Below are positions 23,703-60,915 of a stretch of DNA of 64,000 bases, piece after piece; positions within the stretch are counted from its first letter, which is position 1; each line of letters starts with the position of its first letter. The translations under genes and the position numbers were made by a program. The notes beneath the pieces were generated by a model. The model made no database searches, had not been told where the DNA came from, and saw nothing but the letters and a program-made list of their open reading frames with translations. The DNA comes from Pyropia yezoensis (lineage: Eukaryota; Rhodophyta; Bangiophyceae; Bangiales; Bangiaceae): contig CM020618.1 in NCBI GenBank assembly GCA_009829735.1, positions 17,531,346 through 17,595,345 of the forward strand, given 5' to 3'.

Positions 23703-24030
23703 CGTCGGCGGTGGCGAACACGGGCGAGGGCGGGGTCACGCAGGGACGGAGGTCGCCAACAATGGCGGTGGGGGGGGGGGGGGGAGCGAGCTCCCGAGCG
23801 CCGACGCCCGCCCGCAACGGTGGATGAGCGGGGCGGAGGAAGCGGACACAAAAGAGTTGGGGGAGGTCGGGGGGGGAGGGGAAGGGGTGCCGCCGTGGCG
23901 GGTGTAGTCGGTGGAAGGAGGGGCACCCGGTGAGCAGCCCTGGTGTCGGCTGGGGAGGTGGTCAAGTATGCAGGGCCCTCCCCGCCGATAGCCGTGGCAG
24001 AGCGTATACTGTAGTCCACAGCCGTGGAAA

Positions 24031-24616: not shown

Positions 24617-27490
24617 GGGTGGGGGGCGGCGCCAGCCTGCAGAGACCGACGACGCCCTCGCTGGGCCTCCGCCGCAATGGAACGGACCGCGCGCGCCACC
24701 CCCTCTCGAGGGGGGGAAGGGAGGGGTGCCCTGGGGGGGGGGGCCGCCAGCTGCAACGGCGCTCCGTTGGCATCTGGGACACGGCGCACCCAGAGGCACC
24801 ACCCGACACCCCACCGCGGCGCCGACCGTCAGCACGGGGGTGGGGGCGTGGGGCTTGGGTTCCCGCGTGCGCCCACCGGGCGTCCCGCCTTGCAGTGGAC
24901 GGTGTGCCACCGACTTGCGCGACGGCGCGAATGAGAAGGGAGAGACTGAGACACACACACACACAGCAAGGGAGGCTGCCGGGCGAGGCGCAGGCGGCAC
25001 AGCCTTGCACGCACCCCCCCTCCCTCCGCGCGGGACTCTGCGGGCGCCGGGCCTCCACACGGTGCGCGGCGCCGCCCCAAAAGGATGGGACAGGACGACC
25101 GGCGGTGGATCCGAGGCCCGGGGCGCCCAGCTGGCAGGGGCCCCTGAAAGGATCCCCCGCCGTGCCAGGAGGAAACTGATGACATGCGATGTTGCGGCCG
25201 AGATGGAAGGGGGCTCCAGCCAGCCATCGGGTGCGGTATGTATGGGCGCCGCCAGGGGGGTGAGTAGCAGCCATCACGGTCACTTGTCTAAGGTGGCATG
25301 CCGGGGTGCGGGAAGGATTGGCACGGCGCGTCCTTTCGGGGGGTGGGCTTGCAACGCCCCTTTCGGTGGGGGCCTCCCCAAGCCGCCACCCAATCTCAGG
25401 GCGAGTTGGGCCCCCTCGTCCCTCACTGGGGAGCCCCCGTGCGCTGGCAGTGGCATTGATCGGCGGGCGGGCGCGCTCGGGGGGGGGCGCCGCTGTCGGG
25501 CGTGCAATCCTTTCCGCGACCTCGTTGGTCGGGGACACCGAGCGGGATTTTCACATCACCGCGTGCGGCGGTCTGCGCAGCGATCAATTGCAAGAGCGTA
25601 TTTCCCGAACCGCCAGTCTGGTGATCTGTACTGTACTTATAATACAATGACAAAGTATTTCCACGCCCACCAGGCTGGACCAGGTCACAATTCTCCAAAC
25701 GCATGATCACGCGACCCAGATGTACTCGGCTGGCTCACCAGGGTTTCTTGGGCTTTTGTATACCCGTCTGGCACCAGTTTACAACCAGAGGCACCACATT
25801 ACAACCACTGTAAGGGGCTGTCCTTCACAGTGTCTTCATAGAGAGGGTGCTTTCGCACCCCCCAAAAGCCCCCTCCTTAGCACTTCCAGCTGCCACTGTT
25901 CGGCATAAACAATCGTGGCGTGTCAAGATGCCCATGGACAGAAGCGCCAGGTCAGCGGCTCTCCAGCGGTGTCTCGTTCGTTTTCATCGGCGCCTTGGTT
26001 GACGAGAAGTGGGCGGTTGAGTACTTCTGGGTGTGTGGGGTTGAGCGGCCAGAAGAGATCAAATATCTGATTAAATCGCTGCCACAGCCATCTTCAGGGC
26101 ACCTACCTACCTCCCCCCCCCCTATATGTCGACCTCGCGGCGTCCTCCCCCCGCTCGTTCATGTGCCTGCGGTAGAGAATCGCCCCTTTCCCCCTTCCTC
26201 GTGCACATCGGCGTCAGCCGTGCCCACCCCTCCTCGATATCAACACCAGCGTCTGCTCCCCCCCTTCCTCAACCGTGTCGGCGGAGGCTCACACCCCTCC
26301 CCGCTTGATCCCGCAATAATTCTCGAGACATCCTCTAACGGGATGTTGCGGGGTGTTTATGGCGTCAGGAGGCGGGGCGGGAAGAGCGCGGGGGGACGGG
26401 GTAGGGCTGCCTAACGTGCATGGGGTGCGATTGTTAAAATCAAATCTGGCATTCTCTTTTTAAGCGCTGTTCGAGAGCAACGCGCCCTCGTGCCCAACGC
26501 GTCCTGAAGCGCCTGAGGCGCGATCACTGTTTGCGTTCGGGCTTTAGGTTCAATCACTTACTGCTTCTTTATCCCGGAAAACCCACATGCCAGCACGAAT
26601 CAACAGGTGCACACAGAACAATCACCTTCAAGCCGGCGGAACAACCTTTCCTGTGAGCACATTCTATTGGTCATTCTGCCTTCGATGTTCGGCAGTACTG
26701 TACGCCTTCGATGCTCGGGCTCCGCACATCGAAGGCAGATGCCGAACATGGAAGGCTGTGGTTTTCACCTCACTCCTATCATCACTTTCCTGTACTCTTA
26801 TACCTGAACGGTTTTCAGAACGATTCCGAGAATGGGCGCTTGTCATTCTTGTCAACTTTTTTTTTTTTTTTTTTTCCTCGTGACTCTCGAACAGTTCGCA
26901 GAACGTTGCAACGTTTCTTGTTGAACTGCCATAAGTCTCTACCGGAGAAGCAGTTTCAGGGATGTTCCTGAAAACGTGTTGAATGCAATTTCATCGTTTC
27001 GTTGACCTTGAGAACTCTTCGTTTTCTTCAGTTTTGGAACCCTTCTGCAAAACCTTGTTAGTCTCGCACGCCACAGTGTGGCAGCGGCGGCGAGCCACTA
27101 CGAGCCGCCGCCGCAGCCGCTGCCGCTGCCGGCAACAGCCTTCAGCCCGTGCGCGTTAGTAGGACCGGCAGCTGCCGGCGGTCCCGGAGGTCAGGGCGGG
27201 ACTCGCCCGCAGGGCGGGACACGGCTACCTTTTCTCGACCGTTCTGCCACCCCCGCCCCTCCGCCGCTTTGCTGCCCATTTTTTATTTTACGACCAACAA
27301 CCATGTGGAGCGTCGTGGCACACCCTTTCCAACACCACCTGGACGCGCTTGCTCTGGGGTATGGTCCCTCGTGGACGTGGCGACAGTGACGGGCTGGTGG
27401 CGAATGGACGGGCGGTGTCGTCCGCTGGGCGTGGGCTTCCTTGACAGGGACTGGGACGGCCTAGATGTAGCAATATGGTTGTCCGTATTG

Positions 27491-27827
27491 TGACCCTAAT
27501 ATTAGGGGGGCTACTTCTAATCCTTAACTTCAATTTGAGAGCCCGAGCTGGTCACGGTATCTATAAGTTACGTATGACCAGAGGGACTTGCATCTTGGGG
27601 TGGAGGGTAGTTAGTAGTGTCTCCGAGGGTTTATAACGAGGGGGCCGGTGGCGAATCCACCGCCGGCCAAGGTAGAACAACAAACCCCTCCCATTTGGGC
27701 TCCCATCTTGGTCCCGTGGCTTGCGCTCCAAGGACAGCAACCTTGGCCTCCCGGTGACGTTGGTGCCGATCCCCCTTGGTGAGTGTTCCCTGAGAGTGGA
27801 CGTGCGACGGATTCCTATTGTGCTACA
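27491..27827 (+). repeat. 5' LTR of element A
   Basis: 337 bp, TG...CA ends (TGACCC to GCTACA), followed at once by the primer-binding site. It holds a TATAA box at about 27632 and a perfect 14-bp palindrome at 27494-27507. The left border is inferred from the TG end and from similarity to the bases after the polypurine tract. Confidence 0.7.
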
Positions 27828-27828
27828 T

Positions 27829-27845
27829 TGGTGGAGCAGCAGGGG
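27829..27845 (+). other. Primer-binding site of element A
   Basis: TGGTGGAGCAGCAGGGG directly after the LTR, beginning with TGG as expected for pairing to a tRNA CCA end. The same sequence occurs at the matching place in element B, which supports both borders. The matching tRNA would begin GGAGCAG. Confidence 0.75.
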
Positions 27846-28046
27846 ACGGGTTTCCGTCACCCTTGTGGTGACGCCGTCTTCGGCCCTGGCACACGGATAG
27901 GGATCCGGTCCTTTTCTTGTACTCGTGGTGTTGCGACCTGATCGATTGTGTTGAGCTTTTACCTGTGACTGTGACCTACTGTTACTCTCCCCAATCTACC
28001 CCCTCGCTCTCGTATTCGTGGTGATCGTTGCGTCGGTTGACTGATT

Positions 28047-30236
28047 GTGACTATGTCTACCCAAGAGACGGGGAACGTTCAAGATGACGGATCGGCGTCG
28101 ACGCCGACTCCGGAGGTGACTACGGGAACCGGGATCGGGAACCCGATCGATAACATTGAGACGCCAATGCTTTCCGGTGCCGGATCGACGTTTGGCACGG
28201 CTCGGACGGCAGGAGGCGGGGGCCCGCCTCAACTGTCGTCGACCGACCTCACTCCGCCGCCTCCTTCACCAGGGGATTCCCTGATGGCATCATTGGCCCG
28301 CATCGAGGCCCGGTTTTCCGGGCTCGACGCCCGTCAAGATCGGACGGAGGACGCAATGGCAGTGTTGATGTCAACACGGCACACGACGGGACCCCGTCGT
28401 GTTCCTCCCACACCGGTACGGTTCGAACCGGCCGGACTACTTTCGGAGTCCACCAGGGTCAATCCCGGGGTTGCTACTCCTGGACAACCCCCGGACACAA
28501 GGGGGTATGGGTCCGACTCGTCGGCAGAGTTGGAACGGAGTCACACGGAGCGATACGCTCGGAGCACCCGAAGCGGACTCCGCGGACACGACCCGGCGGA
28601 TACGTACGCCGGGGGAGAGTCGGTTATTGGGGGAGGGGGTACCCTCTCGCAGTACCCCCACGACGAAGGAGGCCAGGCAACTCGGGTTCCCGAGGTGCCG
28701 ACGCCTGAAGTACCATCTTCAGTGGTGGAAGCTATGACCGCGCAGGTAACTGCGAGCCTACTGAAGCGGATGGAGTCCGATGAGTTCGCTCATCAACTGG
28801 CTAAGCGACTGGATATCCAGGACGCTGACACGGAGATCGTCAACGAGGTCTTCCGGTCGGTTCTTACTCCGGAACGTAATCGTTTGGAGGACCGCTCTAC
28901 CACCGTATCGGAATCGATGCGTACTACGTCGCATCGGGCGATCCGCTCTATGCAGACCCTTATGAAGGGAGTCCCTATGTTCGGGGGGCCGAACGGACGC
29001 CCGTTGGCAGTCATCGGCTTCTTGACTAGCTTCAAGGCAGCCTCAGACAAGGCGCTCGTTAACGAGGGGCTGGCCCTGGAGATCCTCCCGTTCTTTGTTG
29101 ATGAACGGGTGCGAGGCATTCTTCGCCAGGCATCCCCGATGCCGGGAATGAGGGTCGCGGCCACCCCCATGGATTACCGTGGGATATTGAAGGAGCTGCT
29201 GAGCAGCTACCTCAGTGAGGACAAGTGCGAGGACCACTATCGGGCTCTTCGCACCGCCACCGCCCAGTTCTGGGAGGATGAGAAGATGTTTGGATGCCGG
29301 ATCCAAGAGCTCGACTACGAGCTGGGGAAGCTCCTCGGAGAAGGGGAGCTACGTGCCATCCTGTTCGCAGGAGTACCCAACTACGTGCGGATATCCGCAC
29401 GGGGCGCCAACACGGCACGGACGAACTTCAGTCGACTGATGCATATGTGCAAGTCCCTAGGGGACGCCTACCGGGTTCTACACCCGGAGTGTGCCTTGGC
29501 CCCGAAGCCCAAGGGTGAGGGAGGCAAGCCCAGTCTTACCCCGGTACCGAGGCAAGAGAAGGTGGAACGTAAGGCCGCACCAGTACTGGTGGCGACCGAA
29601 CATACCCCTATTGGTGAGGATGACCCTCTAATCGACCAACAGGGCCACCTGTTGCTACCGGCGACGCCGGTGATTGATGAACATGGTACGGTAGCGTACA
29701 TCGCCCCGGCTGGAACCCAGTTCCAGGTCAACGAAGGAACGGGACGGCGCGTCCCGTATGTGCGGACTACGGGGTACTCCCCGGTGACGGGTAACCCTCA
29801 CCAACCCTTGCCAACATGGGCGGTGCGCACGGAGGCACCTCCGCAGATTGCGGGCCGACCCAACCGGTTGGGGGAGTCCATGTTCCGGTTGACCCAAGGA
29901 CCCAAGGCCTACCAGGGAGCAGGCACTCGGGCGCCCGAGGGAGGCAACCGTAGCTACGGGGCTACCCCGATGCGAACTCAAGGGGGGACCGGCACGTCCG
30001 GGTGTATGTTGTGTGGGGATCCCCAGCACTGGGTGTCTTCCTGCCCACTCATCCCCGAGGAGTCTCGGCGGGCAGCGGCGCAACGCAAGGCATCCACCGG
30101 GGGGTATCCCGCCCGAGCACCCGGACCCGCACCGGGTAGGCAGCCAGCTCCAGGTGGAGTACTGGCCGTCGAGGGGGCACCTCCTCAGCCGGATGTCCCG
30201 GCGGACAGCACCCTACCAAGGGCGGGAAACGAGTAA
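28047..30236 (+). CDS. Element A gag
   Basis: 729 residues from the first in-frame ATG (a second ATG lies two codons on). The N-terminal third is Thr/Pro/Gly-rich. The middle is a retrotransposon gag (capsid-like) region. Near the C terminus there is one CCHC zinc knuckle (CMLCGDPQHWVSSC, about 30002-30045), which binds nucleic acid. Pol starts a few bases downstream. Confidence 0.9.
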   Translation: MTMSTQETGNVQDDGSASTPTPEVTTGTGIGNPIDNIETPMLSGAGSTFGTARTAGGGGPPQLSSTDLTPPPPSPGDSLMASLARIEARFSGLDARQDRTEDAMAVLMSTRHTTGPRRVPPTPVRFEPAGLLSESTRVNPGVATPGQPPDTRGYGSDSSAELERSHTERYARSTRSGLRGHDPADTYAGGESVIGGGGTLSQYPHDEGGQATRVPEVPTPEVPSSVVEAMTAQVTASLLKRMESDEFAHQLAKRLDIQDADTEIVNEVFRSVLTPERNRLEDRSTTVSESMRTTSHRAIRSMQTLMKGVPMFGGPNGRPLAVIGFLTSFKAASDKALVNEGLALEILPFFVDERVRGILRQASPMPGMRVAATPMDYRGILKELLSSYLSEDKCEDHYRALRTATAQFWEDEKMFGCRIQELDYELGKLLGEGELRAILFAGVPNYVRISARGANTARTNFSRLMHMCKSLGDAYRVLHPECALAPKPKGEGGKPSLTPVPRQEKVERKAAPVLVATEHTPIGEDDPLIDQQGHLLLPATPVIDEHGTVAYIAPAGTQFQVNEGTGRRVPYVRTTGYSPVTGNPHQPLPTWAVRTEAPPQIAGRPNRLGESMFRLTQGPKAYQGAGTRAPEGGNRSYGATPMRTQGGTGTSGCMLCGDPQHWVSSCPLIPEESRRAAAQRKASTGGYPARAPGPAPGRQPAPGGVLAVEGAPPQPDVPADSTLPRAGNE

Positions 30237-30244
30237 GAGGAAGG

Positions 30245-33200
30245 ATGACCGGGGGGCGCTGGGGTTACCCAAGCAAGCCACCCCGGAGTACCGCGGGGAA
30301 AGCCCCACGGAGAGCGCGGTTGAGCCGACGCCGCATCAACCCCCGGGTACACCTTCCGGCCCCGACGACACGGCGTCAGGGGATTGATGACCAACCTCCA
30401 AGGTTGGGAGGAGAGGACGGGAAGCCCCGTCACGTTGAACCAGACAAGGGCCCTGTTCAGGATGCCCGAGCTACACCGGATATCGGTTTAGGACATGTGT
30501 TGTTTACCTTGGAGAACTTCAAGGTATCAGCCACACTGGGGGTTGACCCCCAGTCGACACGATCGTACTACCCTGTACTGGACACAGGGGCTGGACCCAA
30601 CCTTATCCGGAAGGATACCCTCCCGGACAAGTGGCTTCCACGAGTCAGAGTGACTCGGGGACCCACCATCAAGGACGCGAATGGTCGACTCATTCGTACG
30701 ACCGCAGCGATGTCGCTGCAGGTTACCATCGGGGATCTCACCACGGAAGTTGACTTCCTGGTATGTGAAACGCTATCGGTGCCCTGCATACTGGGGTGCA
30801 CCTTCATCAACGTTCACGTTGATGCAATCCGGCCAGGCCGGAGGACCGTCGAGCTTCAAGAAGCCGACGGGACGAAGCGAGGACATACGGCTATCGTCAG
30901 GGACCTGACGCTACAAGGAAGCCACGTTAACGTGGCTGAGGTGTACGCAAGCGTCGAGCCGAAGACACTTCGGTTGGCCAAGCGAACTCGCTTTGAGCCG
31001 TTGTCAGAGACAGTCCTCCCGGTTAACTGCGACCTCGCAGGCATCTGCAGAGTCCAGTCCAACCTACGGACGTACAAGCGCCATGGGTTGACCATGGCCA
31101 ACGGTCTCATAGACCTCCCAGCAGGAGGGTCGTCCCTCCTAGTGATGGCGAACTATCGCCGTAAGGCAGTCACCCTCCCGAAGGGAACTATCCTCGGGAT
31201 TGCCGAACTCTACGAAGGAGATATCCTTACCCCTGATAAGGAAGGTCAAGTGGAACCACTTGAAGTACTGGCGGTCGCCGAGACCACCGAGCGACAGCAA
31301 CCCGATGACGGGAAGCCTAACCCATCGGCGGCTCCGGCGGACCTGCCGCCAAAGGACCAAGAGGCCTTGAAGGCACTGGCCGAGGCTGACCTCGACCACC
31401 TTCCCCCTTCGGTAGCCGAAGGGGTACGACGGATGCTAAGAAAGCATGACGTTATGTGGACAGGCGGGGCCTTGGGGACCATTGGGGCAACCCAACATCG
31501 TATAGACCTGGTACCAGGCGCACGACCCGCCCGCTCACAACCGCACCGAGCGGGACCTATGCAACGAGAGATCGTTGATGGAGAAGTGAAGAGGATGAGT
31601 GAAGCTAAGGTGATCCGACCTTCGATGTCGGAATGGGGTGCCCCAGTCGTTATTGTGCCGAAGAAGGATCAAACCCCTCGGTTTTGCATCGATTATCGAC
31701 GCCTCAACTTGGTTACCAAGAAGGACTCATACCCTTTACCAAGGATGGATGAATGCATCGACTCCCTGGGGGAGGCTACGGTGTTTACCACCATCGACTG
31801 CAATGCCGGATACTGGCAGATCCCGGTGGCGGACGAGGATATCCCCAAGACGGCATTCGTCTGTCACAGTGGAGTGTACGAGTTCCTAAGGATGCCCTTC
31901 GGATTGTCCAACGCCCCCGCTACATTCCAGCGGGCTATCGACATCATACTGTCGGGGGTGAAGTGGCGTAACTGCCTAGTGTACCTCGATGACGTCATCG
32001 TCTTCTCGCGTAGCATGGATGACCATGTGCAACATGTGGACGAGGTACTCACCCTCTTGAGGAACGCCGGGGTAACCCTGCGTCTGAAGAAGTGCGCCTT
32101 CTTCCAACAGACGGTCGAGTATCTGGGCCACCAGATAACCCCTGGTAAACTAGGGGTACTCGAAGCCAATACCCGGGCACTCCGGGATGCCCGGTTCCCT
32201 AACACCCAGACGCAGCTCAAGAGCTTCCTGGGAATGTGCAATGTATACCGACGGTTCGTCAAGGACTTCGCTCGGATAGCTAAACCGTTAACGGTTCTTA
32301 CGAGCAGTACCTTACCCAAGGTACTCCAACCCCCTTCGCCTAGCGAAGAGGAGGCATTCGAGTCGCTGAAGCGAGCCCTACTAGCCCCACCCGTCCTTGC
32401 GTTACCGCATAGACGGGGTACCTTCGTCATCGATGTCGATGCGTGTGATACACAAGTGGGATGCACCCTGTTACAGGGAGAGACGTTGATAGGTACCGAC
32501 AACGTTATCCCGGACCTACGTCCGGTAGGGTACTTCAGCCGGACACTCAACCCGGCTGAGCGGAACTATAGTGCCACCGAGCGTGAATGCCTCGGAGTTA
32601 TATGGGCAGTGCAACTGCTCCGTCCATACCTGGAGGGCTCCAGGTTCATCGTGAGGTCCGACCACGAACCCCTACGATGGCTCCTCAACCTTGGTGACAA
32701 GGATTCCGATAGCCATGGGAGGCTAGCCCGATGGAGGCTGAAGATGGCCGAGCACGACTACCGCACGGTGTATAAGGCTGGGTCAACCCACCACCTCGGA
32801 GACGCGTTGTCTCGACTCGACACCCCGAGCGGGGATACCCGCCCGGTGGACGAGGACATCCCGGTGGTACCGGTGTGCATGGTGGGTAATGCTACCCAGG
32901 GTATGGTTGACCATACCATGGCACACCTTGCGTGCCCATTGACCCTCGCGGACTTCCGCGAGGCACAGGCCAACGACGATGACTGTAGACGTCATCGTGC
33001 TAACCTCCTGGCCGGTACGGCCGGCATCTTCTCCGAGAACGAAGACGGACTCATATACCGGCGGGCACCCGCCGATGGACGACATCAAGTCGTGGTTCCC
33101 GTGTCCTTACGGCAAGCCGTCATGGAACGAGAACATGAGAACCCTACAGCCGGACACCCGGGGGGTTCACGTATGTTCGCAGCAATGCGAAGGTTCTTCT

Positions 33201-34138
33201 ACTGGCCAGCAATGGCCGTCGACGTGGTCGACCACGTAAGGGGATGCCACCCCTGTGCACGTAACCGCATGAGTCTACATAGGCAGGCGTCTGCCATGAA
33301 GCTATTCCCACCTGATGGGCCCAACGAACAAGTCGCTATCGACATACTCGGGCCACTTCCGATAACGGAAGAAGGGAACAGGTACATCCTGGTCATGTCT
33401 GACCGATTCACTAAGCTGTCAAGAGCGGCAGCCATCCCGAATGATACGGCATACACGATCATGAACGCAGTGGTTGACCACTGGATCAGTGCATACGGAG
33501 TCATGAAGCAACTCCTCTCCGATAACGGAGCAAACCTTACGTCGGCATTCTGCACAAAGGTCCTGGGCATGTTCGGTATCGAACCACGTCGGGCATCCGA
33601 CTACCACCCGCAGTCCAACGGGCAGGTGGAGCGGTTCAACCGCACCATCTTAAAGATGCTACAGTGCTACGTGGCCGAGCACACGAACACTTGGGACAGG
33701 CTTCTGTCCGTACTCACCCTGGCATACAATGCCAGGCCACATCGGAGCACAAACATTGCTCCGCTGGAGTGGGTCATGCCACTAGGCGTCGGTAACCTGA
33801 CGCTGCCACCCGGCAGGTGCACTCGGTATGATACACCGAAGGGCCGACCCGCCGAACGCATCCACCTAGCTTGGTTGGCCAAGCTATCGTGGATGATTCC
33901 TAAGCTCAAGGGTGCCCTTGACAGAACACAACTTCGATATAAGAAGAACTTCGACGCCCGACTACGGGTGCGCAACGCAACCCTGGTAACAGGTGACTGG
34001 GTCTATATCAGACACCAGAAGTTCCGAGGGAACAAGCTTATGCAACCGGTCAAGGGACCGTACCAGATCCTCCACAGAGATGACCACTCTGTTATCTTAC
34101 ACTCCGATACGGGAGATTCAACGCATCAGCATGAATGA
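30245..34138 (+). CDS. Element A pol (protease, RT, RNase H, integrase)
   Basis: 1,297 residues. Aspartic protease DTGAGPNLI near 30580. Reverse transcriptase with FCIDYRRLN, the FGLSNAPATFQR block and the catalytic YLDD (about 31981-31992). RNase H with DVDACDTQVG. Integrase with an HHCC zinc module (HENPTAGHPGG to CHPCARNR, about 33130-33260) and a DDE core (AIDILGPLP, SDNGANLTSAF, then the Glu region). Typical gypsy domain order. Confidence 0.95.
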   Translation: MTGGRWGYPSKPPRSTAGKAPRRARLSRRRINPRVHLPAPTTRRQGIDDQPPRLGGEDGKPRHVEPDKGPVQDARATPDIGLGHVLFTLENFKVSATLGVDPQSTRSYYPVLDTGAGPNLIRKDTLPDKWLPRVRVTRGPTIKDANGRLIRTTAAMSLQVTIGDLTTEVDFLVCETLSVPCILGCTFINVHVDAIRPGRRTVELQEADGTKRGHTAIVRDLTLQGSHVNVAEVYASVEPKTLRLAKRTRFEPLSETVLPVNCDLAGICRVQSNLRTYKRHGLTMANGLIDLPAGGSSLLVMANYRRKAVTLPKGTILGIAELYEGDILTPDKEGQVEPLEVLAVAETTERQQPDDGKPNPSAAPADLPPKDQEALKALAEADLDHLPPSVAEGVRRMLRKHDVMWTGGALGTIGATQHRIDLVPGARPARSQPHRAGPMQREIVDGEVKRMSEAKVIRPSMSEWGAPVVIVPKKDQTPRFCIDYRRLNLVTKKDSYPLPRMDECIDSLGEATVFTTIDCNAGYWQIPVADEDIPKTAFVCHSGVYEFLRMPFGLSNAPATFQRAIDIILSGVKWRNCLVYLDDVIVFSRSMDDHVQHVDEVLTLLRNAGVTLRLKKCAFFQQTVEYLGHQITPGKLGVLEANTRALRDARFPNTQTQLKSFLGMCNVYRRFVKDFARIAKPLTVLTSSTLPKVLQPPSPSEEEAFESLKRALLAPPVLALPHRRGTFVIDVDACDTQVGCTLLQGETLIGTDNVIPDLRPVGYFSRTLNPAERNYSATERECLGVIWAVQLLRPYLEGSRFIVRSDHEPLRWLLNLGDKDSDSHGRLARWRLKMAEHDYRTVYKAGSTHHLGDALSRLDTPSGDTRPVDEDIPVVPVCMVGNATQGMVDHTMAHLACPLTLADFREAQANDDDCRRHRANLLAGTAGIFSENEDGLIYRRAPADGRHQVVVPVSLRQAVMEREHENPTAGHPGGSRMFAAMRRFFYWPAMAVDVVDHVRGCHPCARNRMSLHRQASAMKLFPPDGPNEQVAIDILGPLPITEEGNRYILVMSDRFTKLSRAAAIPNDTAYTIMNAVVDHWISAYGVMKQLLSDNGANLTSAFCTKVLGMFGIEPRRASDYHPQSNGQVERFNRTILKMLQCYVAEHTNTWDRLLSVLTLAYNARPHRSTNIAPLEWVMPLGVGNLTLPPGRCTRYDTPKGRPAERIHLAWLAKLSWMIPKLKGALDRTQLRYKKNFDARLRVRNATLVTGDWVYIRHQKFRGNKLMQPVKGPYQILHRDDHSVILHSDTGDSTHQHE

Positions 34139-34415
34139 TGTCACACCTGCTCCGAAGCCGGAACAGCCTCAGCCGGTACCGGCTGGGTTGCTACATGAAG
34201 CCCTTACAACCCACCGATCAGATGACCCGGTGGGACCGGATGGCATTCCATACCAAGTAGAGAGCGTGGTCGGACACACACCCGACCCGGACCTACCAGG
34301 ACCCTGGTACGTCAAGGTTATGTGGGTCGGATACGACTCACCCACCTGGGAACAGGCGGCAAACATACCCCGCCAACTCCTCATGCCTTACATGAGGCGA
34401 CGACGCCTACTGTAA
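34131..34415 (+). CDS. Element A chromodomain-coding part
   Basis: Encodes a chromodomain (YQVESVVGH, WYVKVMWVGYDSPTWEQ, about 34250-34400) directly after the integrase part, the position expected in chromoviruses. The aromatic and Trp residues of the histone-mark-binding fold are visible. Confidence 0.75.
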   Translation: MNDVTPAPKPEQPQPVPAGLLHEALTTHRSDDPVGPDGIPYQVESVVGHTPDPDLPGPWYVKVMWVGYDSPTWEQAANIPRQLLMPYMRRRRLL

Positions 34416-34493
34416 CAACCCAACCGATACCGACTTCGGCTGTTGGGGGGTGAGGCTTATACCTACTAAGTAGGGTGTGACATGGGTACGGCA

Positions 34494-34589
34494 GACTTAG
34501 GTTTCTAAGTCAAATCAGACTTAGGTTTCTAAGTCGAACCAAGCTTAGGTAACTAAGTAGAGCTAAGCTTAGGTAACTAAGTAAAACCT
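34494..34589 (+). repeat. Four 24-bp tandem repeats, each a hairpin
   Basis: Four copies in two pairs. The first two hold GACTTAG-GTTT-CTAAGTC (34494-34511, 34518-34535). The last two hold CTTAG-GTAA-CTAAG (34544-34557, 34568-34581). Each unit is a perfect stem with a 4-nt loop. Located in the non-coding 3' region of element A. Confidence 0.9.
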
Positions 34590-34658
34590 GAACCTTAATA
34601 AGTTAACTTAAAGGTAAAGGCTAACTCCGATAATATCGAAGTAACTAGGGGCTTACAC

Positions 34659-34714
34659 GGAGGATGACCTCCCCAAGCCAAGACACCAAGTGAGGGAGGA
34701 TGACCTCCCCAAGC
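34659..34714 (+). repeat. 20-bp direct repeat with hairpin
   Basis: GGAGGATGACCTCCCCAAGC at 34659-34678 and again at 34695-34714. Each copy folds as GGAGG-ATGA-CCTCC. Confidence 0.9.
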
Positions 34715-34893
34715 ATGAACCAACCGGAAGAAGTTGGACGGGAGGCAAGGCACCACTGAGCCAGAAGGGGTGCTCCCCAGGGCAGCAAACAGAGGCAAGC
34801 AATGCCCCCAAAGGGGGATGAGTTTATACTCACTACTACCCGGCTACCATAAGGGTTGCCGGGGCCCTCTCCCGCACAAACAATAGCACTCCT

Positions 34894-35201
34894 CAGTGGG
34901 TAGACCCACTGCCCGAGGGAGGCCACTCACGCGTAAGCGCGTATACCTCCGTGCTCCACCGGTCGGCAATGTCACGACGGTCGACCACCGAGTTACCTCG
35001 GTGCATAGCTGGACGAGGGTGCTGCGGCCAGCCTCCACGTCCTCCAGAGCTTTCTGGAGGCGGTCCAGCACGCCACCGAAGCAACGCGCTGACCCAACCA
35101 GCGCAGCACCTGGGGGGTATCCCCCAGCTAACAGAGAGACCCCCACGCATGCGCGGGTACAAGGGCGTCAACGCCCTCATACCAGAGACGGGACCCCCGT
35201 C
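34894..35201 (+). repeat. Array of short tetraloop hairpins in element A 3' region
   Basis: Perfect stems: 34894-34911 (7 bp, loop TAGA), 34929-34942 (5 bp, TAAG), 34986-35003 (7 bp, TTAC), 35041-35060 (8 bp, GCTT), 35110-35127 (7 bp, GTAT), 35163-35176 (6 bp, loop CA) and 35187-35201 (6 bp, loop ACC). Stem sequences differ from one another, so this is not one repeat copied. Confidence 0.85.
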
Positions 35202-35230
35202 ATGTAGGACAGGGGCGGGAGGTGACACTG

Positions 35231-35730
35231 NNNNNNNNNNNNNNNNNNNNNNNNNNNNNNNNNNNNNNNNNNNNNNNNNNNNNNNNNNNNNNNNNNNNNN
35301 NNNNNNNNNNNNNNNNNNNNNNNNNNNNNNNNNNNNNNNNNNNNNNNNNNNNNNNNNNNNNNNNNNNNNNNNNNNNNNNNNNNNNNNNNNNNNNNNNNNN
35401 NNNNNNNNNNNNNNNNNNNNNNNNNNNNNNNNNNNNNNNNNNNNNNNNNNNNNNNNNNNNNNNNNNNNNNNNNNNNNNNNNNNNNNNNNNNNNNNNNNNN
35501 NNNNNNNNNNNNNNNNNNNNNNNNNNNNNNNNNNNNNNNNNNNNNNNNNNNNNNNNNNNNNNNNNNNNNNNNNNNNNNNNNNNNNNNNNNNNNNNNNNNN
35601 NNNNNNNNNNNNNNNNNNNNNNNNNNNNNNNNNNNNNNNNNNNNNNNNNNNNNNNNNNNNNNNNNNNNNNNNNNNNNNNNNNNNNNNNNNNNNNNNNNNN
35701 NNNNNNNNNNNNNNNNNNNNNNNNNNNNNN
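35231..35730. other. Assembly gap of 500 N
   Basis: Exactly 500 N, which suggests a placeholder or scaffolding estimate. It falls just inside the 3' LTR of element A. Confidence 0.99.
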
Positions 35731-52616: not shown

Positions 52617-52803
52617 TAGCTCCCTCCCTAGTCCGGCACGTCCTCGGGCCGAACCAGGTGCCACCGTGCACAGCCTCGAGCACGTCCACACCGGTGCCGA
52701 GGTCGAGCGTCTTCACCCGGTCACGATCACCTGCCCCGATTCTGCCCCTCCCCCCCCTCCGCTCCTTCACCTTGGCCCTCTCGTTCCCCGGAGTCTGGAC
52801 GGT

Positions 52804-55066: not shown

Positions 55067-58000
55067 TCAATCCTCTTGTTCCGCATCCGTTGCGGGTGAG
55101 CTCGTCTCGTCCCGAGGGTCTTGGTTGGCCCCGTCCTCTTGGTCCTCCTCCGTGTCCGACTCCAGAATCTTGCCGGCTCTGGCCACTGGAGTGCCCTCGA
55201 TCCCGTTCCGTCGCGTGTAGGCACAGACGTCCGCGATGGGTAGCCGGTTTGAGGGTTCCCATGTATCATCTGCTGGGTTAAAGCCGAACCAGCGTACTCG
55301 CAGGTACAGGCGTCCATCTCTCCAGGCATGGTCGACAAACTTGACGTAGACAAATTCCCGACCTTCTTCTTGGGATAGCCAGGGTATCGCAGTCCGCTTA
55401 CGCCGGGTCAAGTCCCGTTGGCTTGGCGGTGGAGCTCGGGTGACATGGTCGCTGCTCACCCGGTACGGAGAGCCATCCACGTCTAGAAGGAAGGTCCAGC
55501 CATCCGTATTGAGAATCTCATAAGGTCCATCCGTCTTAGAGTCCAGTTTCCCCCGGGTCTTGCTATGGTTGTCCACAAAAACCCAGTCGCCACCACCCAG
55601 TTCCTTGTTCTTTTCCCGGACACCCTTGTCATAGTCCCGCTTGTATCGCTCCTGGGTCTTTGAAATTGACTCCTTGACTCTTGGGAGCAGGAGCTTTAGT
55701 TGTTCCAGGAACTCATCCTTTGCCTTGGGACCTGACTTCAGTGCAGGCTGGAGACCATCCGGTATTCTTTCCAGGGAGAAGTTGGTCAGCCGCCTTGGGG
55801 TGACAAAGTCGAGTGGAGCGACTCCCGTTGTCCGGTGAACTCGGGAGTTGTAGGCTAGAGTGAGGACAGCCAGGAGCTCGTCCCAGTCTTCTTGGTGCTC
55901 CTCCACGTAGTGCCGTAGCATGTCCACTAGGGTCCGGTTGAATCGTTCCACCTGGCCGTTCGTTTGAGGGTGGTACGTCGTGGTGTACAAGTTCTTGATG
56001 CCCATCAGGTCACAGACTCCTTGGAAGAACAGGGATGCAAACTGGGGACCGTTGTCGGTTAAGACGGAGTCTGGAGGGCCGTAGGCAGCTATCCAGTACT
56101 CGCAGAAGGCCGACGTGACATCCAGAGCCGTGATGGTTCTCAACGGGATTGCTCGAGTGAACTTGGAGAACCGGTCACAAATGATGAGCAGGTATATGTT
56201 GCCACTGGAGGTCTCAGGTAGGGGCCCCAGGATGTCCATGCTTAAGCTTGCAAAGGGCTCCGCCGCAGGGAATAGGCGTAGCTTAGAAGTCTTCTTCCTC
56301 TGGGACAACCGGTTCCTTGCACAAGAAATACAAGCCTCCAGGCACTTATGGACGTCACTGGCCATGGTTTCCCAGTAATAGTGTCGTCTCATGGAAGCAT
56401 ACATCCGATTGATACCAGGATGTCCGGCCTGGGGAGACGAGTGCTCCAGGCGTAGGATGTCAGTCCGTAGGCTCCGGGGTACGTAGACTTGAGTTGCCCC
56501 ATCGAAGGGTGACACCCGTACCAGGAGTCCGTCTGTAGACTCGGAGAAGCGACTGTTCCGGTTCAGGTCCATTTGGTGGCGAAGCTCCAAGCATTGAGGG
56601 TCCGTCAATTGTGCCTCCAGCATCCGGTGAATGGTTACCGGTTGATGAGCGTCAGGTGTCTCGTACAGGGGAGCGTGCCAGCCACGTCCGACATTCGGGA
56701 GGATAAAGCAAGGTATTTCCTCCGGGATAGGACCGGTATCGGCTGCGGGGGTCTCCAGCCTGGACATGGTGTCGGCGCAGTGGTGCTCCCTCCCTGCTCT
56801 GGTGCACACCTTGTACTTGAACTCCGAAAGGCGTAGGCGCCACCGGGCGACCCTTCCTTGACTGCTGTCCATGCATAGCAGCCACCTTAGACTGGCGTGG
56901 TCCGTCCGGATGAGGAACTCTTGTCCTTCAAGATATGGACGTAACAGGAAGCAAGCCCAGACGACCGCCAAGCACTCGCGCTCGGTCGTGGAATAGTTCT
57001 TCTCGGCTGGAGTCAAGACGCGACTGTAGTAGCCTATCGGGAGGAAGTGCCCATCAGGTTGCTGCTGGAGTAGTGAGCACCCCACCTGGACGCCACAGGC
57101 ATCAGTCTCCAGAACAAACTGGCCCTCCCGCTTGGGTAACGCCAGTACTGGAGTGGTGGTCAGGCGCTTCTTGAGCTCTTCGAAGGCTGCTGTCTGCTTC
57201 TCGTCGAACACCGGGAGTTGTGCTGGAAGCTTCTTGCTAGTAAGCTTGGTCAAGGGCCGGGCAATCAGAGCGTAGTCCCGTACGAACCGGCGGTAGACGT
57301 TGCACATACCCAGGAAGCTCTTGAGTTCCGTCTGGGTTTTAGGTTGCCGTGCCTGCCGGAGGGCCTTGATGTTCTTCTCATTGACTCGGAGCTCCCCCGG
57401 ACTCAGCACGTGCCCCAGGTACTCCACCTCAGTCTCAAACAGGTGGCACTTCTCGGCCTTGAGGGTAACTCCAGCCTTGGACAGGAGGGCCAGGACTTCT
57501 CGAAGGTGCTCCAGGTGTTCCGCTGGGGTCTTGGAGAAAACGATGATGTCGTCCAGGTAGACCAAACATGTTCTCCACCTTAGCCCCGACAGGATGATGT
57601 CGATGGCTCTCTGGAAGGTTGCCGGAGCATTAGTGAGACCAAAAGGGAGACGCTTGCACCGGAACAGTCCCATGTGGCACGTGAAGGTAGTCTTGTCCTT
57701 GTCCTCGTCAGCCAGAGGGATCTGCCAGTAACCGGCATTACAATCCAGCGTCGAGAAGAGGGTGGCATCACCAAGAAAGTCGAGGCAATCATCCATCCGG
57801 GGTATCGGGTATACATCCTTGACTGTCATCTCGTTCAGGCGTCTGTAGTCAACGCAGAAACGGAAGTGACCGCCAGGTTTCGGGACGACTACCACCGGGA
57901 AAGCCCACTCGCCATCAGACGGCTCGATAACATCCATCTTGAGCATCTTGTTAACCTGCTTCTCAATCTCATCCCGGCGATGAGGTCCAGCCCGGTATGG

Positions 58001-59026
58001 TTGCATGTGCACTGGTTTGGCATCTGGCTTGAGTTGAATCCGGTGTAGGGTGGCGTCCATCTTGCCCAGCTCTCCGGACCACAGGTGCCGATATTCCTGG
58101 AGAAGCTTCTCCAGTGCCTCCTTCAAGTCGGGAGGGACGTTTTCTTGGTTGACCTTCGGCATCCCGGGCGGTGCTTGTTCCGGCTTCGGAGTAGTACGGC
58201 CAGCCTGCTCTTGTTCCGGAGATACGTCTAAGGCCGTCAAGTTGGATGCCAGCTCTTGTTGCAGGTTGAAGAGGTCTTCCTTGCTCATAGCGCGGGCGGA
58301 CCCCCGGTAAGGCTCTGCTGTACCAACTCGAGTGCCCTTGGCGAGGGTTATTGGCTTCCGGCTCACGTTGACGATCAGCACCGAGAACGGAGTGTGCCTC
58401 TCCACCTTCTTGTGATGTCCGTGGGCTAGGTATAATCGGTGTTTCGCCAGAAACTCCTTGCGTCCGTAGATCAGGCATTGACCTGCAGTCCGGGTCGTGA
58501 CTTGAACCTTGGTCTCCGAGCGAGGAGGTAGGAGCACCGGTTTGATGAGGGTCAAGGTAGAGGGTGGGATGCGTTCCTTCTGGTTCTTGGCCACACGAAC
58601 CTTGGTGTCTAGGTGCTCCAGCACTGGTGACACAAACCCATGGTTGAACTGCACCTTTCCTTCTCCGGGTAGGATGCTCTTGACATGCTGCTTCTGGAAG
58701 TCCCAGCCTAGGATGAGGGGGACTGATAAGGTCTTGACTACTAGAAAGGGAAAAAGCATTGGTTCATTGTTGACATAGATGGCGACGGGAAGACGGCCAA
58801 GCGGTCGTAGGGTTTGACCTGATGCGTCCACAATCCGGGTCTTGGTAGGCGCTCTCCAGGCATGTCGACGCCAGCCCGGAGGTAACAGGTTCTCAGTGAT
58901 GACGCTTGGTCCGGCTCCCGTGTCGACCACCGGCGTAACAGCTTGGGGGAGGCTATCCCCCACACGCATACGAGCATTAATCTTGAGGTTTTCCTTACGC
59001 AGGACGAGCAAGGTCCCCTTGAACAA
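55067..59026 (-). CDS. Element B pol (protease, RT, RNase H, integrase, chromodomain)
   Basis: 1,319 residues. Protease VVDTGAGPSVI near the start. RT with FCVDYRRLN, FGLTNAPATFQR and YLDD (about 57550-57565). RNase H ETDACGVQVG. Integrase HHCC (HSSPQAGHPG to CISCARNR) and DDE core (SMDILGPLP, TDNGPQFAS). C-terminal chromodomain (EFVYVKFVDH, RVRWFGFNPADDTWEP, about 55220-55370). Closely related in layout to element A pol, but the chromodomain is continuous with pol here. Confidence 0.96.
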   Translation of the reverse strand: MFKGTLLVLRKENLKINARMRVGDSLPQAVTPVVDTGAGPSVITENLLPPGWRRHAWRAPTKTRIVDASGQTLRPLGRLPVAIYVNNEPMLFPFLVVKTLSVPLILGWDFQKQHVKSILPGEGKVQFNHGFVSPVLEHLDTKVRVAKNQKERIPPSTLTLIKPVLLPPRSETKVQVTTRTAGQCLIYGRKEFLAKHRLYLAHGHHKKVERHTPFSVLIVNVSRKPITLAKGTRVGTAEPYRGSARAMSKEDLFNLQQELASNLTALDVSPEQEQAGRTTPKPEQAPPGMPKVNQENVPPDLKEALEKLLQEYRHLWSGELGKMDATLHRIQLKPDAKPVHMQPYRAGPHRRDEIEKQVNKMLKMDVIEPSDGEWAFPVVVVPKPGGHFRFCVDYRRLNEMTVKDVYPIPRMDDCLDFLGDATLFSTLDCNAGYWQIPLADEDKDKTTFTCHMGLFRCKRLPFGLTNAPATFQRAIDIILSGLRWRTCLVYLDDIIVFSKTPAEHLEHLREVLALLSKAGVTLKAEKCHLFETEVEYLGHVLSPGELRVNEKNIKALRQARQPKTQTELKSFLGMCNVYRRFVRDYALIARPLTKLTSKKLPAQLPVFDEKQTAAFEELKKRLTTTPVLALPKREGQFVLETDACGVQVGCSLLQQQPDGHFLPIGYYSRVLTPAEKNYSTTERECLAVVWACFLLRPYLEGQEFLIRTDHASLRWLLCMDSSQGRVARWRLRLSEFKYKVCTRAGREHHCADTMSRLETPAADTGPIPEEIPCFILPNVGRGWHAPLYETPDAHQPVTIHRMLEAQLTDPQCLELRHQMDLNRNSRFSESTDGLLVRVSPFDGATQVYVPRSLRTDILRLEHSSPQAGHPGINRMYASMRRHYYWETMASDVHKCLEACISCARNRLSQRKKTSKLRLFPAAEPFASLSMDILGPLPETSSGNIYLLIICDRFSKFTRAIPLRTITALDVTSAFCEYWIAAYGPPDSVLTDNGPQFASLFFQGVCDLMGIKNLYTTTYHPQTNGQVERFNRTLVDMLRHYVEEHQEDWDELLAVLTLAYNSRVHRTTGVAPLDFVTPRRLTNFSLERIPDGLQPALKSGPKAKDEFLEQLKLLLPRVKESISKTQERYKRDYDKGVREKNKELGGGDWVFVDNHSKTRGKLDSKTDGPYEILNTDGWTFLLDVDGSPYRVSSDHVTRAPPPSQRDLTRRKRTAIPWLSQEEGREFVYVKFVDHAWRDGRLYLRVRWFGFNPADDTWEPSNRLPIADVCAYTRRNGIEGTPVARAGKILESDTEEDQEDGANQDPRDETSSPATDAEQED

Positions 59027-59154
59027 ACAGGGTGTCCAGGCGGCTACCGGTTGAGCAGGTAACTGCCGTCCTTTCTCCCGGCACGCAAGGGGAGAACAGG
59101 TAGAAGTACCCTGCCGTTGGAGATTCGGGAAGACACTTGGGGAGAGCGCCTGAC

Positions 59155-60915
59155 CTACTCGTTTCCCGGCTCCGAGGAGTCCTTAGAGGTTTCGGTCTCC
59201 AGGTCAAAGTCCGTAGGAGCTTCCCTTGCCAGAGCCTCCGTGATGCTCTGTAAGGTTGCCACTCGGATGGCATGTACCTGTGCCTTGTCCATCTTGGAGG
59301 GTGCCCGCCGGTCAGCCCAGTTGACCGCCTTTGCAAACACCAGTCCTTGACGCTTGAGTTTCTCCTGGAGATCCTCGGGAATGGTCGGGCACTGGTAGGA
59401 CATATGATCCTCCTTCTGGCACAGCCAGCAAGACCGGAACCGCTGGTTCCTGATCTGCTTGGGGGCGACCAGGGAAGGTTGCTCCTTAGAAACGAAGCCG
59501 CCCCACTTGTCCCTTGACTCCATGGGTGAGGCCTCGCCAACTGCGAGTACCGGTACAGGGTTATCACCTCCCTTATACTTGTCGGGTCCGGGACGAACTC
59601 GCGACAACGGCTTGGGGGTTGATACCATAGGGGCCTGGAGGGCCTTGGCTTGCCGGTGCTTGCCCTGGGTGTAGGCCATCAACTGCTGGAAGGTATGTTC
59701 TTGATGTTCCTGGTTGTAGTTCTCCGCATCCACTTGAAGATATTCAGGAAGCCCCTCCGAGAAGATCATCTTGAGCCTGTCCTCAGGGTAAACGTTGCCA
59801 CAAGCATCGCTCATCTCCCGGACACGACGGGCGAACGCCTCTGGAGTCTCTTGTCTCTCCATGGTTGCCCGGTTCAGCCTACCGACTGCCTTACGCAGGG
59901 AGTCCGCGTCTGCGTAGTTGGACAGGAGCCAGTTGACCGCCTCCGGATAACTCGCGACGGTACGTCCAACAATGTGCCCGGCAGAGTCTGGTAGAACCTG
60001 TGCAAACCGCTGTTCCGCTTCTCCGGTCATGAAGTTAACCAGGAGATAGAGAGCCTTGCCCTCGGACACATCGTTGTCATTGCATGCCTTGACAAACCGG
60101 CGCAGGAAGGCAAAGATAAGCGCCGGTCTCTTCCCGGAAAACTTAGGATGCCCCCCAAAGCTCGGCTGCATTCGCCGGTTCAGGGATGCCATCTTCTTGG
60201 CCATCTTCCGGGTGTAACCTTGGTCTTGGTTCTCCAGCCGGTAGTTACCCCAATACGTGACCTTGTTCAGGGTGGCATCTCCCACTTGGTGGGCAGGGAA
60301 GTCGAACTCGACTAGCCTGCGCCGGGTAGGACCGGGAGATGCATCCCAGTCATATCCCTCCTCAGAGCTGGAGGAACTGGTCTCGCTGGTGCTAGAGCGG
60401 CGGCAACGACGCCGACCCCTACGGCTGCTCCGGTCACCGGTCTTGGAGCTCCCCGCCCCATAGGACGCAAGGGGAGGAAAAGCTTGGCCGGTCCCAGGAG
60501 TCGAAGTCTCAGGAAGACCCGTAGAACCAGTCATAGCGGTGCCTCTGGCACTGCTAGTGCCCACAGGAAGAGGTGTATACACCCAGCTGCCATGTGTGGG
60601 TCCAGGAGTAAACACACCAGGGGCTATCCCTGGAGGTTGAAGAGTAGAACCGACAGGAGGGAGACGTCTGCTGCGAGCGGACTCAAACGCCGTTGACCCC
60701 GGGGTGGCTCCCACAGGAGGAACAGCCGGAGGAACGGGAGCAGGCGGTACTTGGCCGCCTGTAGACTCCAGTCCACTACCGGATGTCACGCCCAGGTCTG
60801 CTTCACCCGTAGGGAGAACGCCGGGTTGGGCACCGTCCCCCGCGGTGACCAGGGATGCGTCAAGGGACGCGGGGTCTACCCCTTCGGGCACCGTCGTGCC
60901 AGGGAGGGTAGCCAT
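59155..60915 (-). CDS. Element B gag
   Basis: 586 residues starting MATLPGTTVPEG. Pro/Gly/Thr-rich N terminus, Ser/Arg-rich linker, a capsid-like gag region (ALIFAFLRRFVKACNDND, FARRVREMSDACGNVY), and one CCHC zinc knuckle (CWLCQKEDHMSYQC, about 59388-59430). Confidence 0.92.
   Translation of the reverse strand: MATLPGTTVPEGVDPASLDASLVTAGDGAQPGVLPTGEADLGVTSGSGLESTGGQVPPAPVPPAVPPVGATPGSTAFESARSRRLPPVGSTLQPPGIAPGVFTPGPTHGSWVYTPLPVGTSSARGTAMTGSTGLPETSTPGTGQAFPPLASYGAGSSKTGDRSSRRGRRRCRRSSTSETSSSSSEEGYDWDASPGPTRRRLVEFDFPAHQVGDATLNKVTYWGNYRLENQDQGYTRKMAKKMASLNRRMQPSFGGHPKFSGKRPALIFAFLRRFVKACNDNDVSEGKALYLLVNFMTGEAEQRFAQVLPDSAGHIVGRTVASYPEAVNWLLSNYADADSLRKAVGRLNRATMERQETPEAFARRVREMSDACGNVYPEDRLKMIFSEGLPEYLQVDAENYNQEHQEHTFQQLMAYTQGKHRQAKALQAPMVSTPKPLSRVRPGPDKYKGGDNPVPVLAVGEASPMESRDKWGGFVSKEQPSLVAPKQIRNQRFRSCWLCQKEDHMSYQCPTIPEDLQEKLKRQGLVFAKAVNWADRRAPSKMDKAQVHAIRVATLQSITEALAREAPTDFDLETETSKDSSEPGNE

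Follow-up and report, generated by a model that had tools for sequence, protein, structure and literature searches.

Why is a retrotransposon of the red alga Pyropia yezoensis filled with short perfect inverted repeats, in its genes as well as between them? The element, which we call A, lies in a window of 64,000 nucleotides (the whole stretch of DNA that we analysed), and it is a Ty3/gypsy retrotransposon of about 10.8 kb with hundreds of copies in this genome. We propose that its repeats are family-specific recognition hairpins that are maintained by selection, mainly via synonymous sites. Judging from the sequence, we give this proposal about an even chance of being right.

Element A and its inverted repeats

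Full-length copies of A reach about 10.8 kb (for example, LTR starts at C1:249187 and 259647, with the LTR end at 260009). The LTR has TG...CA ends, and five of the seven full-length flank pairs show a 5-bp target duplication, while two show none. A single pol contains reverse transcriptase (RT), RNase H, and integrase, in the order that is seen in Ty3/gypsy elements, and the closest solved structure is Ty3 Gag-Pol (7q5b). At the end of the integrase, where elements of the chromovirus branch have a chromodomain, the match to a chromodomain scores 18.7 bits in A (the cut-off is 25.1; the window copy has it out of frame) and 20.5 bits in a second element (B), which is also below the cut-off. A sequence-only reading of the window had placed A at 27491-35230. 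This interval lies inside the element, but the true start is 27466, and 35230 is the edge of an assembly gap, not the end of A. The parts of A, and B, are:

27466..27828, + strand: 5' LTR of A (TGTAGC...GCTACA, 363 bp), with matches at 17 other loci (96.7-99.7% identity)
28047..30236, + strand: first ORF of A, 729 amino acids, with no match in Pfam; gag by position alone
30245..34138, + strand: pol ORF of A, with protease-like (below cut-off), RT, RNase H, and integrase regions
34140..34415, + strand: chromodomain-like stretch of A, a weak Pfam match below cut-off; its frame differs from that of pol in the window copy
34139..35230: 3' region of A, past pol up to the gap
35231..35730: assembly gap of 500 N; other copies of A run on past 35230
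55067..60915, - strand: element B, a related control without the excess, with pol at 55067-59026 (chromodomain match below cut-off) and an upstream ORF at 59155-60915

Within 27491-35230 there are 52 perfect inverted repeats with a stem of at least 7 bp and a loop of 0-5 nt (32 with stem 7, 13 with stem 8, 6 with stem 9, and 1 with stem 10). The sequence-only reading had found about 39 by eye, so the excess that it described is real and larger. All 15 of the examples that it listed are present where it placed them, although the one at 32944-32963 has stem 9 and loop 2 instead of 8 and 4. Dinucleotide shuffles averaged 2.84 such repeats (standard deviation 1.59, maximum 8 in 100 shuffles). For stems of at least 8 bp, we found 20 in A against 0.67 in the shuffles, and for stems of at least 9 bp, 7 against 0.12. 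If we preserved the protein and the codon usage instead (300 shuffles each), then gag had 14 repeats against 1.7 and pol had 26 against 2.1. The comparison that the earlier reading had called for, with shuffles that keep dinucleotides or amino acids, thus puts the count in A far above both. The repeats lie in coding and non-coding parts alike, as it had claimed, and they are common to 24 aligned rows from 20 genomic stretches, so other copies of the family do share the stems. Mirror repeats were not raised in A (1 against 3.4 expected), and direct repeats were only mildly raised, in A (24 against 15.6) as in B (27 against 16.5).

Besides A, the shuffle test for stems of at least 7 bp covered B and two host stretches of the window. 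B has 2 repeats in 55067-60915 compared to 2.3 in shuffles. The host stretches are near background, with 3 against 3.5 at 46000-54000 and 9 against 6.5 ± 2.6 at 8900-16500. Both types of shuffle lead us to reject an artefact of codons or composition in A. Together with the related control B and the sharing across 24 aligned rows, they leave hardly any room for doubt that the repeats are not due to chance, to an assembly error, or to base composition or codon use.

The 2-kb bin with the most inverted repeats outside of A (8, a count made without a shuffle comparison) is at 22001-24000, with a GC content of 0.805.

Most hairpins of A share a core

The stems had been described as differing in sequence. 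This is true of their arms but not of their centres: most hairpins of A share the core G-N4-C, with a loop of about D-Y-R-H (5'-G-D-Y-R-H-C-3'). In the window element, 70 of the 91 tetraloop hairpins with a stem of at least 5 bp are closed by 5'-G, compared to about one third in shuffles. If we add 1,684 bases of another copy, there are 90 G-N4-C hairpins with stems of at least 5 bp (4.7 expected), and 23 with other closing bases (7.7 expected). In these 90 hairpins, the first loop position is C only twice (against 201 of 762 G-N4-C sites with stems of 1-2 bp), and the loop centre is Y-R in 53 (against 222 of 762). The core consensus is its own reverse complement. (When loops were compared between strands, the background was itself strand-asymmetric.)

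The stems are mostly 4-7 bp long and of arbitrary sequence, and A has about one hairpin per 80-110 nt. G-N4-C hairpins with stems of at least 5 bp number 22 in the first ORF, 33 in pol, and 14 in the 3' region, which has the highest density of A's parts; the 5' LTR (27466..27828) has none. There is no excess at stems of 1-3 bp, and at 4 bp or more there are 136 sites against about 18 by geometric expectation. Pairing of third codon positions with third codon positions is avoided (7 of 55 hairpins, p = 0.003 against 0.31). Examples are:

28381..28402: G-GACC-C core, 9-bp stem around a 4-nt loop
29384..29401: G-ATAT-C core, 7 bp
30535..30554: G-TTGA-C core, 8 bp
30805..30824: G-TTCA-C core, 8 bp
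32944..32963: G-ACTT-C core, 8 bp; the same in the relatives L045 and L042
33867..33886: G-TTGG-C core, 8 bp
34494..34581: four spaced hairpins in one series, with loops GTTT, GTTT, GTAA, and GTAA and inner arms CTTAG/CTAAG

At pairs 2-5, sites with a single wrong pair numbered 13, 22, 12, and 46, where chance extension would give 11.8, 11.5, 10.8, and 46.0. The excess of one-mismatch 5-bp forms is about 13, beside 90 perfect ones, so the hairpins of A are mostly perfect and not decayed. For 6-bp stems, it is about 19 beside 46.

Could these hairpins reflect selection for a structured genomic RNA overall, either as genome-scale ordered structure or as a shield against small RNAs? The folding energy of the sense strand is clearly below shuffles in A and in three related families (z = -1.7 in A, -1.4 in L034, -1.9 in L040, and -2.5 in L043) and weakly so in the family L036 (-0.4), compared to 0.2 in B and 0.1 in L044. 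Also, 6 of the 13 wrong pairs at pair 2 of the 5-bp stems, which adjoins the closing pair, are G.U, and this hints at wobble tolerance next to the loop. However, the stems of A show no overall preference for G.U, whose enrichment is about as small as that of A.C. The antisense strand folds about as well (-1.30 ± 0.18 against -1.69 ± 0.26 for sense in A, and similarly in other families), and L036, though rich in inverted repeats, is not below L030 (-0.9). The excess is confined to short loops, as pairing in A across loops of more than about 15 nt is at the background level. A also has its core motif. The compact RNA fold suggested by the sequence-only reading is not supported by the G.U, strand, and loop-range tests or by the family-specific core, which that reading missed; we disfavour it and consider it improbable. 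Because G.U is not preferred, a role for the hairpins at a DNA stage is at least as likely as one at an RNA stage.

Related families, chromosomal DNA, and integration

Dense short perfect hairpins cover the genes and non-coding parts of A and of no fewer than four related Ty3/gypsy families in P. yezoensis. (Two complementary RT-motif patterns gave 2,421 exact matches in 107 Mb; in viral contigs there were 6 pattern matches, none of them a relative.) The four families besides A that show the excess do so with different loop sizes or cores; it is absent from three others, and there is a mild rise in L030. That other families carry other loop sizes and closing bases is shown with fewer data than the core of A: the cores of L040, L043, L034, and family C are from a scan of loop sizes and bases, made on one copy per family (4-5 kb; two copies for C). 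In L040, the loop is of 3 nt; 14 of 19 hairpins have A as the closing base, and 13 of 19 have C as the second pair. In L043, the loop is of 4 nt; of 38 hairpins, 20 have T at the first central position and 22 have A at the second. L034 and C have no sharp core. Stem positions shared between families number 2 for A and L034 (0.98 expected), 0 for A and L036 (0.65 expected), and 5 for L034 and L036 (0.52 expected). These five could be conserved, but we do not take them as such, as some of them fall in conserved protein motifs and most differ in their loops. A shared core in one family, with other patterns or few hairpins in its relatives, suggests an unrecognised layer of information on top of the genes.

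The hairpins might function in the integrated DNA, as cruciforms or hairpins recognised by a host protein of chromatin or recombination. Watson-Crick pairing without an overall G.U preference and a self-complementary core would fit. But families that share this genome differ from one another or have no excess, so a host factor alone is insufficient, and the A family shows no constraint on its variants: shared variants occupy 17 of 908 stem columns and 146 of 6853 other columns, which is no significant depletion in the stems. We think that this is unlikely. With the stems of the window copy alone, third-position variants were at 12 of 203 sites in stems against 188 of 1797, which was not confirmed with stems called in any copy.

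The cores might instead be targets of the element's own integrase, or landing pads for nested insertion. The target consensus of retroviral integration is symmetric and weak, with a Y-R centre, which the core of A resembles, and one copy of A is flanked on both sides by A-LTR sequence (L052/L053). By eye, 3 bases separate the centre of this nested site from the closest centre of an inverted repeat. A 5-bp duplication implies that the target is centred on a base, while the core hairpins of A are centred between bases. This mismatch leads us to reject integrase landing sites, for A only, and they are very improbable overall.

Origin, upkeep, and meaning of the hairpins

The stems are maintained between subfamilies of A. 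In 2 kb aligned to relatives that are 10% diverged, 8 of 10 hairpins of L045 and 9 of 10 of L042 are unchanged in A, and 8 of 14 hairpins of A are unchanged in L045 and 9 of 14 in L042, where about 35% would be expected (0.34-0.36 with shifted masks). With stems called in one sequence, third-position divergence in stems was 0.113-0.187, and 0.236-0.245 with shifted masks, in seven of eight ordered comparisons (five of eight with a fraction of at most 0.05). The exception is L038-L039, with 0.139 against 0.155 even unpooled. If we pooled stems called in either sequence, then the reduction was significant in none of the eight comparisons.

The main rival explanation is that during reverse transcription the growing strand folds back at a family-specific spot (in A, where a terminal C pairs with G across four bases), copies a few bases of its own arm, and returns. 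Perfect stems would then be made or repaired without having a function. Fold-back copying is known in principle for DNA polymerases (PMC8794818, PMC8604942). It predicts mostly perfect Watson-Crick stems with no overall G.U preference and few decayed forms, as we see. The effect is about equal on both strands, and the trait broadly tracks the RT tree, which is weakly supported. However, 24 of 36 polarised stem gains are single substitutions, 12 per arm. Of the 12 gains with two or more changes, 9 are in both arms and 3 are one-armed; L041, which aligns poorly in its last part, contributes 5 of the 12, and without it the counts are 4 of 7 and 3 of 7. These cases are few. Similarly, 15 stems are longer in some row of A than in the window copy, and for 14 of them the difference is a single base. 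(The single three-change case, L014 at 28451-28470, lies amid other clusters of changes and may be recombinant.) The excess begins at 4 bp and not already at 2-3. Stems do not lose conserved residues more often than the rest of the sequence: the deviating residues were 0 of 21 in stems against 19 of 252 outside in A, and 1 of 36-39 against 13-19 of 237-239 in L034, L036, and L039, and none of these differences is significant. The stems thus carry no visible protein cost. Template switching, which the sequence-only reading had named as a possible cause, is in our view less probable than recognition, given how the gains arose.

If the hairpins are recognition sites, then each would be one of about a hundred equivalent sites. 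The partner may be encoded by the same element, with Gag/nucleocapsid or reverse transcriptase as the likeliest candidates, and it would read the sites on a single-stranded replication intermediate (genomic RNA or first-strand cDNA), perhaps for packaging, condensation, or pausing. The number of sites may matter more to selection than any single site does, so that positions would turn over between families while the density stays. The proposal asks selection to maintain about a hundred sites simultaneously, a demanding condition that counts against it, as do the lack of constraint on variants within the A family and the unreduced divergence with pooled stems. The one-mismatch minority and the mild rise in L030 weaken recognition and fold-back copying about equally. 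More tentatively, there may be a hairpin code: sister families would each write about 100 copies of their own address of loop and closing pair over their genes via synonymous bases, and the element's own machinery would read it on single-stranded RNA or cDNA and so distinguish its own molecules from those of its sisters. The address would shift when families split, keeping neighbours separate.

Full-text searches of the literature gave no description of such hairpin arrays, and searches on red-algal elements and ordered RNA structure listed nothing on point. The dispersed packaging signals of RNA viruses are many sequence-structure motifs with a common recognition feature (PMC6281560), such as stem-loops with an RGAG motif in the loop in HBV (PMC7612645), and A likewise has many dispersed stem-loops with a shared motif. 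Unlike them, A is an LTR retrotransposon, and its shared feature includes the closing pair. The G.U tolerance expected of packaging signals that are read as RNA is not seen in A overall, apart from a hint that is confined to pair 2 (6 of 13). In the mitochondria of Nematomorpha, there are coding palindromes of up to 284 bp (PMC6649704). As in A, these are perfect repeats inside coding genes with few imperfect ones, with gains and losses between species, and they use the degeneracy of the code. The stems of the window element are at most 10 bp, lie on a 43.6-Mb contig, and have a core; the Discussion of that paper makes no mention of a core common to the palindromes. Template-switch hairpins and quasi-palindrome correction also give perfect stems and compensatory changes (PMC8794818, PMC8604942), but one-armed changes of several bases are in the minority here, and the relevant parts of those papers do not mention a family-specific core. 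Yeast Ty3, from the same superfamily, also has short palindromes: there are six candidates at the 5' end of its genomic RNA (in the 5' UTR and GAG), one of which is needed for dimerisation in vitro (PMC11381356). In contrast, A has about a hundred hairpins over its body and no core hairpin (stem of at least 5 bp) in the LTR.

If reverse transcriptase made these hairpins by copying, then they would visibly record a mutational mechanism that has gone unnoticed and is able to fill coding sequence with perfect stems. If the element itself reads them, then protein-coding sequence would carry a second code, with a separate key for each family, and this would explain how crowded related elements could avoid packaging or copying one another. 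Either way, the origin and upkeep of perfect stems in coding sequence, which were left open for Nematomorpha (PMC6649704), become testable in one genome with many families and hundreds of copies.

Perfect inverted repeats in element A

Element A is a Ty3/gypsy element that begins at 27466 of the window. Its pol matches the RT, RNase H, and integrase of the Ty3/gypsy type as well as the Ty3 polyprotein. Full-length copies are about 10.8 kb, and the copy in the window is interrupted at 35231 by a gap of 500 Ns. The features we refer to are:

27466-27828, LTR of element A (363 bp)
28047-30236, first ORF of A, called gag from its position
30245-34138, pol of A
34139-35230, 3' region of A
55067-60915, minus strand, element B, a related element used as a control

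A sequence-only reading had claimed that A is unusually rich in short perfect inverted repeats. Our recount of 27491-35230 bears this out: there are 52 with stems of at least 7 bp and loops of 0-5 nt, versus 2.84 ± 1.59 in 100 shuffles that preserve dinucleotides (maximum 8). The excess persists if the amino acids are kept by permuting synonymous codons (300 shuffles each), with 14 versus 1.7 in gag and 26 versus 2.1 in pol. Element B has no excess like A's (2 versus 2.3), and two further regions of the window have 3 versus 3.5 and 9 versus 6.5 ± 2.6. The excess in A is limited to short loops and fades at about 10-15 nt. Mirror repeats do not rise in A, and direct repeats rise no more than they do in B. 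(Outside of A, the top 2-kb bin is 22001-24000, with GC of 0.805 and a raw count of 8 perfect inverted repeats with stems of at least 7. The genome of Pyropia yezoensis is reported to be 65% GC, PMC7423979.)

Copies of A and other families

The exact 29-base start of A's LTR occurs 725 times in the genome. We fetched 10 pairs of flanks: three belong to 3' LTRs, which have the element itself on one side, and seven are full-length copies, five with a 5-bp target duplication and two with none. Other copies are 98.0-99.4% identical to the window's A in long alignments. The question of whether they share the stems can be answered: the stems are common to 24 aligned rows (20 fetched stretches), with 929 instances unchanged, 74 pair changes, and 251 not covered.

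Some copies have unusual surroundings or structures (C1 is a contig of the host genome, G000). A full-length copy (L052/L053, C1:7369854 and 7380735) has A's own LTR on both flanks and the target duplication atcca, so it inserted into another A LTR. Two other full-length copies (L054/L060, C1:5692309 and 5728112) have identical 25 bases 5' of the 5' LTR, and a matching duplication is present in only one of them; this is perhaps a duplicated or recombined segment. Among the first 100 places listed, C1:807782-819260 is a tandem array of LTR-containing units, with 13 A LTR starts in one orientation at steps of about 880 bp (and one double step), and C1:833890 and C1:1581223 have three LTR starts each, spaced about 2,030 bp apart. 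In stretch L014, three closely spaced clusters of differences at element positions 28334-28501 suggest recombination with another subfamily; one cluster creates a 9-bp stem that is perfect in L014 and has three mismatches in the window copy. At 34140-34415 the window copy has a chromodomain-like stretch that is out of frame with pol. Downstream of pol, L010:8318-10000 (minus strand) is an antisense reading frame that stays open for 561 codons or more and has no significant Pfam match. This protein has 12 relatives, and the seven that are named are all hypothetical proteins of Pyropia vietnamensis (42-58% identity); the elements may therefore carry it as a conserved antisense gene.

We fetched and counted 17 further stretches (L029-L045). 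Those rich in perfect inverted repeats are A's relatives L041, L042, and L045 (86-90% DNA identity to A) and, besides this group, L034, the C family (L035-L039), L040, and L043. No excess was found in L044 (61% amino-acid identity to B) or in L029 and its near-copies L031, L032, and L033. L030 is intermediate: it has 2 versus 1.3 expected with stems of at least 7, and with stems of at least 6 it has 11 versus 5.2 ± 2.1 (loops of 0-5) and 13 versus 4.9 ± 2.0 (loops of 6-11). A single origin of the trait is compatible with the RT-integrase tree, in which the deciding node has support of 0.489, four sequences are degraded, and L030 is left out.

Form of the hairpins

If the loop is 4 nt, 70 of A's 91 hairpins are closed by 5'-G...C-3', versus about one third in shuffles. 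With stems of at least 5, this G-N4-C core occurs 90 times versus 4.7 expected (counted over the window element and a further 1,684 bases from a second copy). Loop position 1 is C in 2 of these 90, versus 201 of 762 G-N4-C sites with stems of 1-2, and the loop centre is Y-R in 53 of 90, versus 222 of 762. A's odd and longer loops are also in excess, without the closing preference. The window has 70 core hairpins in A's 7,765 bp versus 67 in the remaining 55,735 bp. Within A there are 22 in gag, 33 in pol, 14 in the 3' region, 1 in the leader, and none in the LTR (Poisson probability 0.035 at 9.2 per kb). (In the 3' region, 34494-34581 contains four spaced near-identical hairpins with inner arms CTTAG/CTAAG and loops GTTT or GTAA.)

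Each rich family has its own range of loops. L040 has loops of 3, with A-T closing in 14 of 19 and C outside the closing pair in 13 of 19; L043 has loops of 4 and 6 whose centre is rich in T-A; and a scan of loop sizes and bases found no sharp core in the C family or L034. These four sets are small and were found by scanning, and more copies are needed.

Selection or copying

The length excess of A's stems begins at 4 bp. With one wrong pair, 5-bp stems number 13, 22, 12, and 46 (at pairs 2-5) versus 11.8, 11.5, 10.8, and 46.0, and 6-bp stems number 4, 11, 6, 20, and 44 versus 3.2, 3.1, 2.9, 12.4, and 44.0. The perfect counterparts number 90 and 46, so decayed forms are present but are a minority. 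At pair 2, the wrong pair is G.U in 6 of 13. Across positions 2-5, G.U is at 0.07-0.10 versus 0.10 expected and A.C is at 0.12-0.14 versus 0.14. For 7-bp stems pooled across five rich families, perfect stems are up 11.4-fold, those with one G.U 2.9-fold, one A.C 2.4-fold, and another mismatch 1.9-fold. Both strands have similarly low folding energies. Mostly perfect pairing without a preference for G.U is what fold-back copying would give; we consider it a possible, if less likely, source of the stems.

The gains of stems, polarised by means of three A lineages and three C lineages, favour stepwise selection, because they are mostly single substitutions (24 of 36; 12 in the left arm and 12 in the right) and the multi-change gains mostly touch both arms (9 of 12). 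L041, which aligns poorly in one part, contributes five of these 12; if it is left out, both arms are touched in four of seven.

We also compared conservation across 2 kb aligned among A, L045, and L042. The core hairpins of L045 and L042 are unchanged in A in 8 of 10 and 9 of 10 cases, and those of A are unchanged in 8 of 14 (L045) and 9 of 14 (L042), versus 0.34-0.36 for shifted masks. For stems called in one sequence, third-position divergence was 0.113-0.187 versus 0.236-0.245 in seven of eight comparisons and 0.139 versus 0.155 for L038-L039; the fraction from this test was 0.05 or less in five of eight. Pooled stems showed no significant drop in any of the eight. Variants within the A family showed no constraint at stems, which is expected if most of them arose after insertion, and which also counts against strong selection. 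Conserved residues were lost at 0 of 21 positions in A's stems versus 19 of 252 outside (not significant), so there is no extra loss. Third codon positions are paired with third positions in 7 of 55 coding core hairpins, versus a proportion of 0.31 (p = 0.003).

Going by what the cited reports describe, the nearest system in function is dispersed packaging signals (PMC6281560), the nearest in look is the coding palindromes of Nematomorpha (PMC6649704), and the nearest mutational model is template-switch hairpins (PMC8794818). A's hairpins fail one tested feature of each, so we place them under none of the three. Among the best matches listed from the full text of open-licence papers, we found no description of elements of this kind. 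We think there is about an even chance that the hairpins are recognition sites that are kept by selection.
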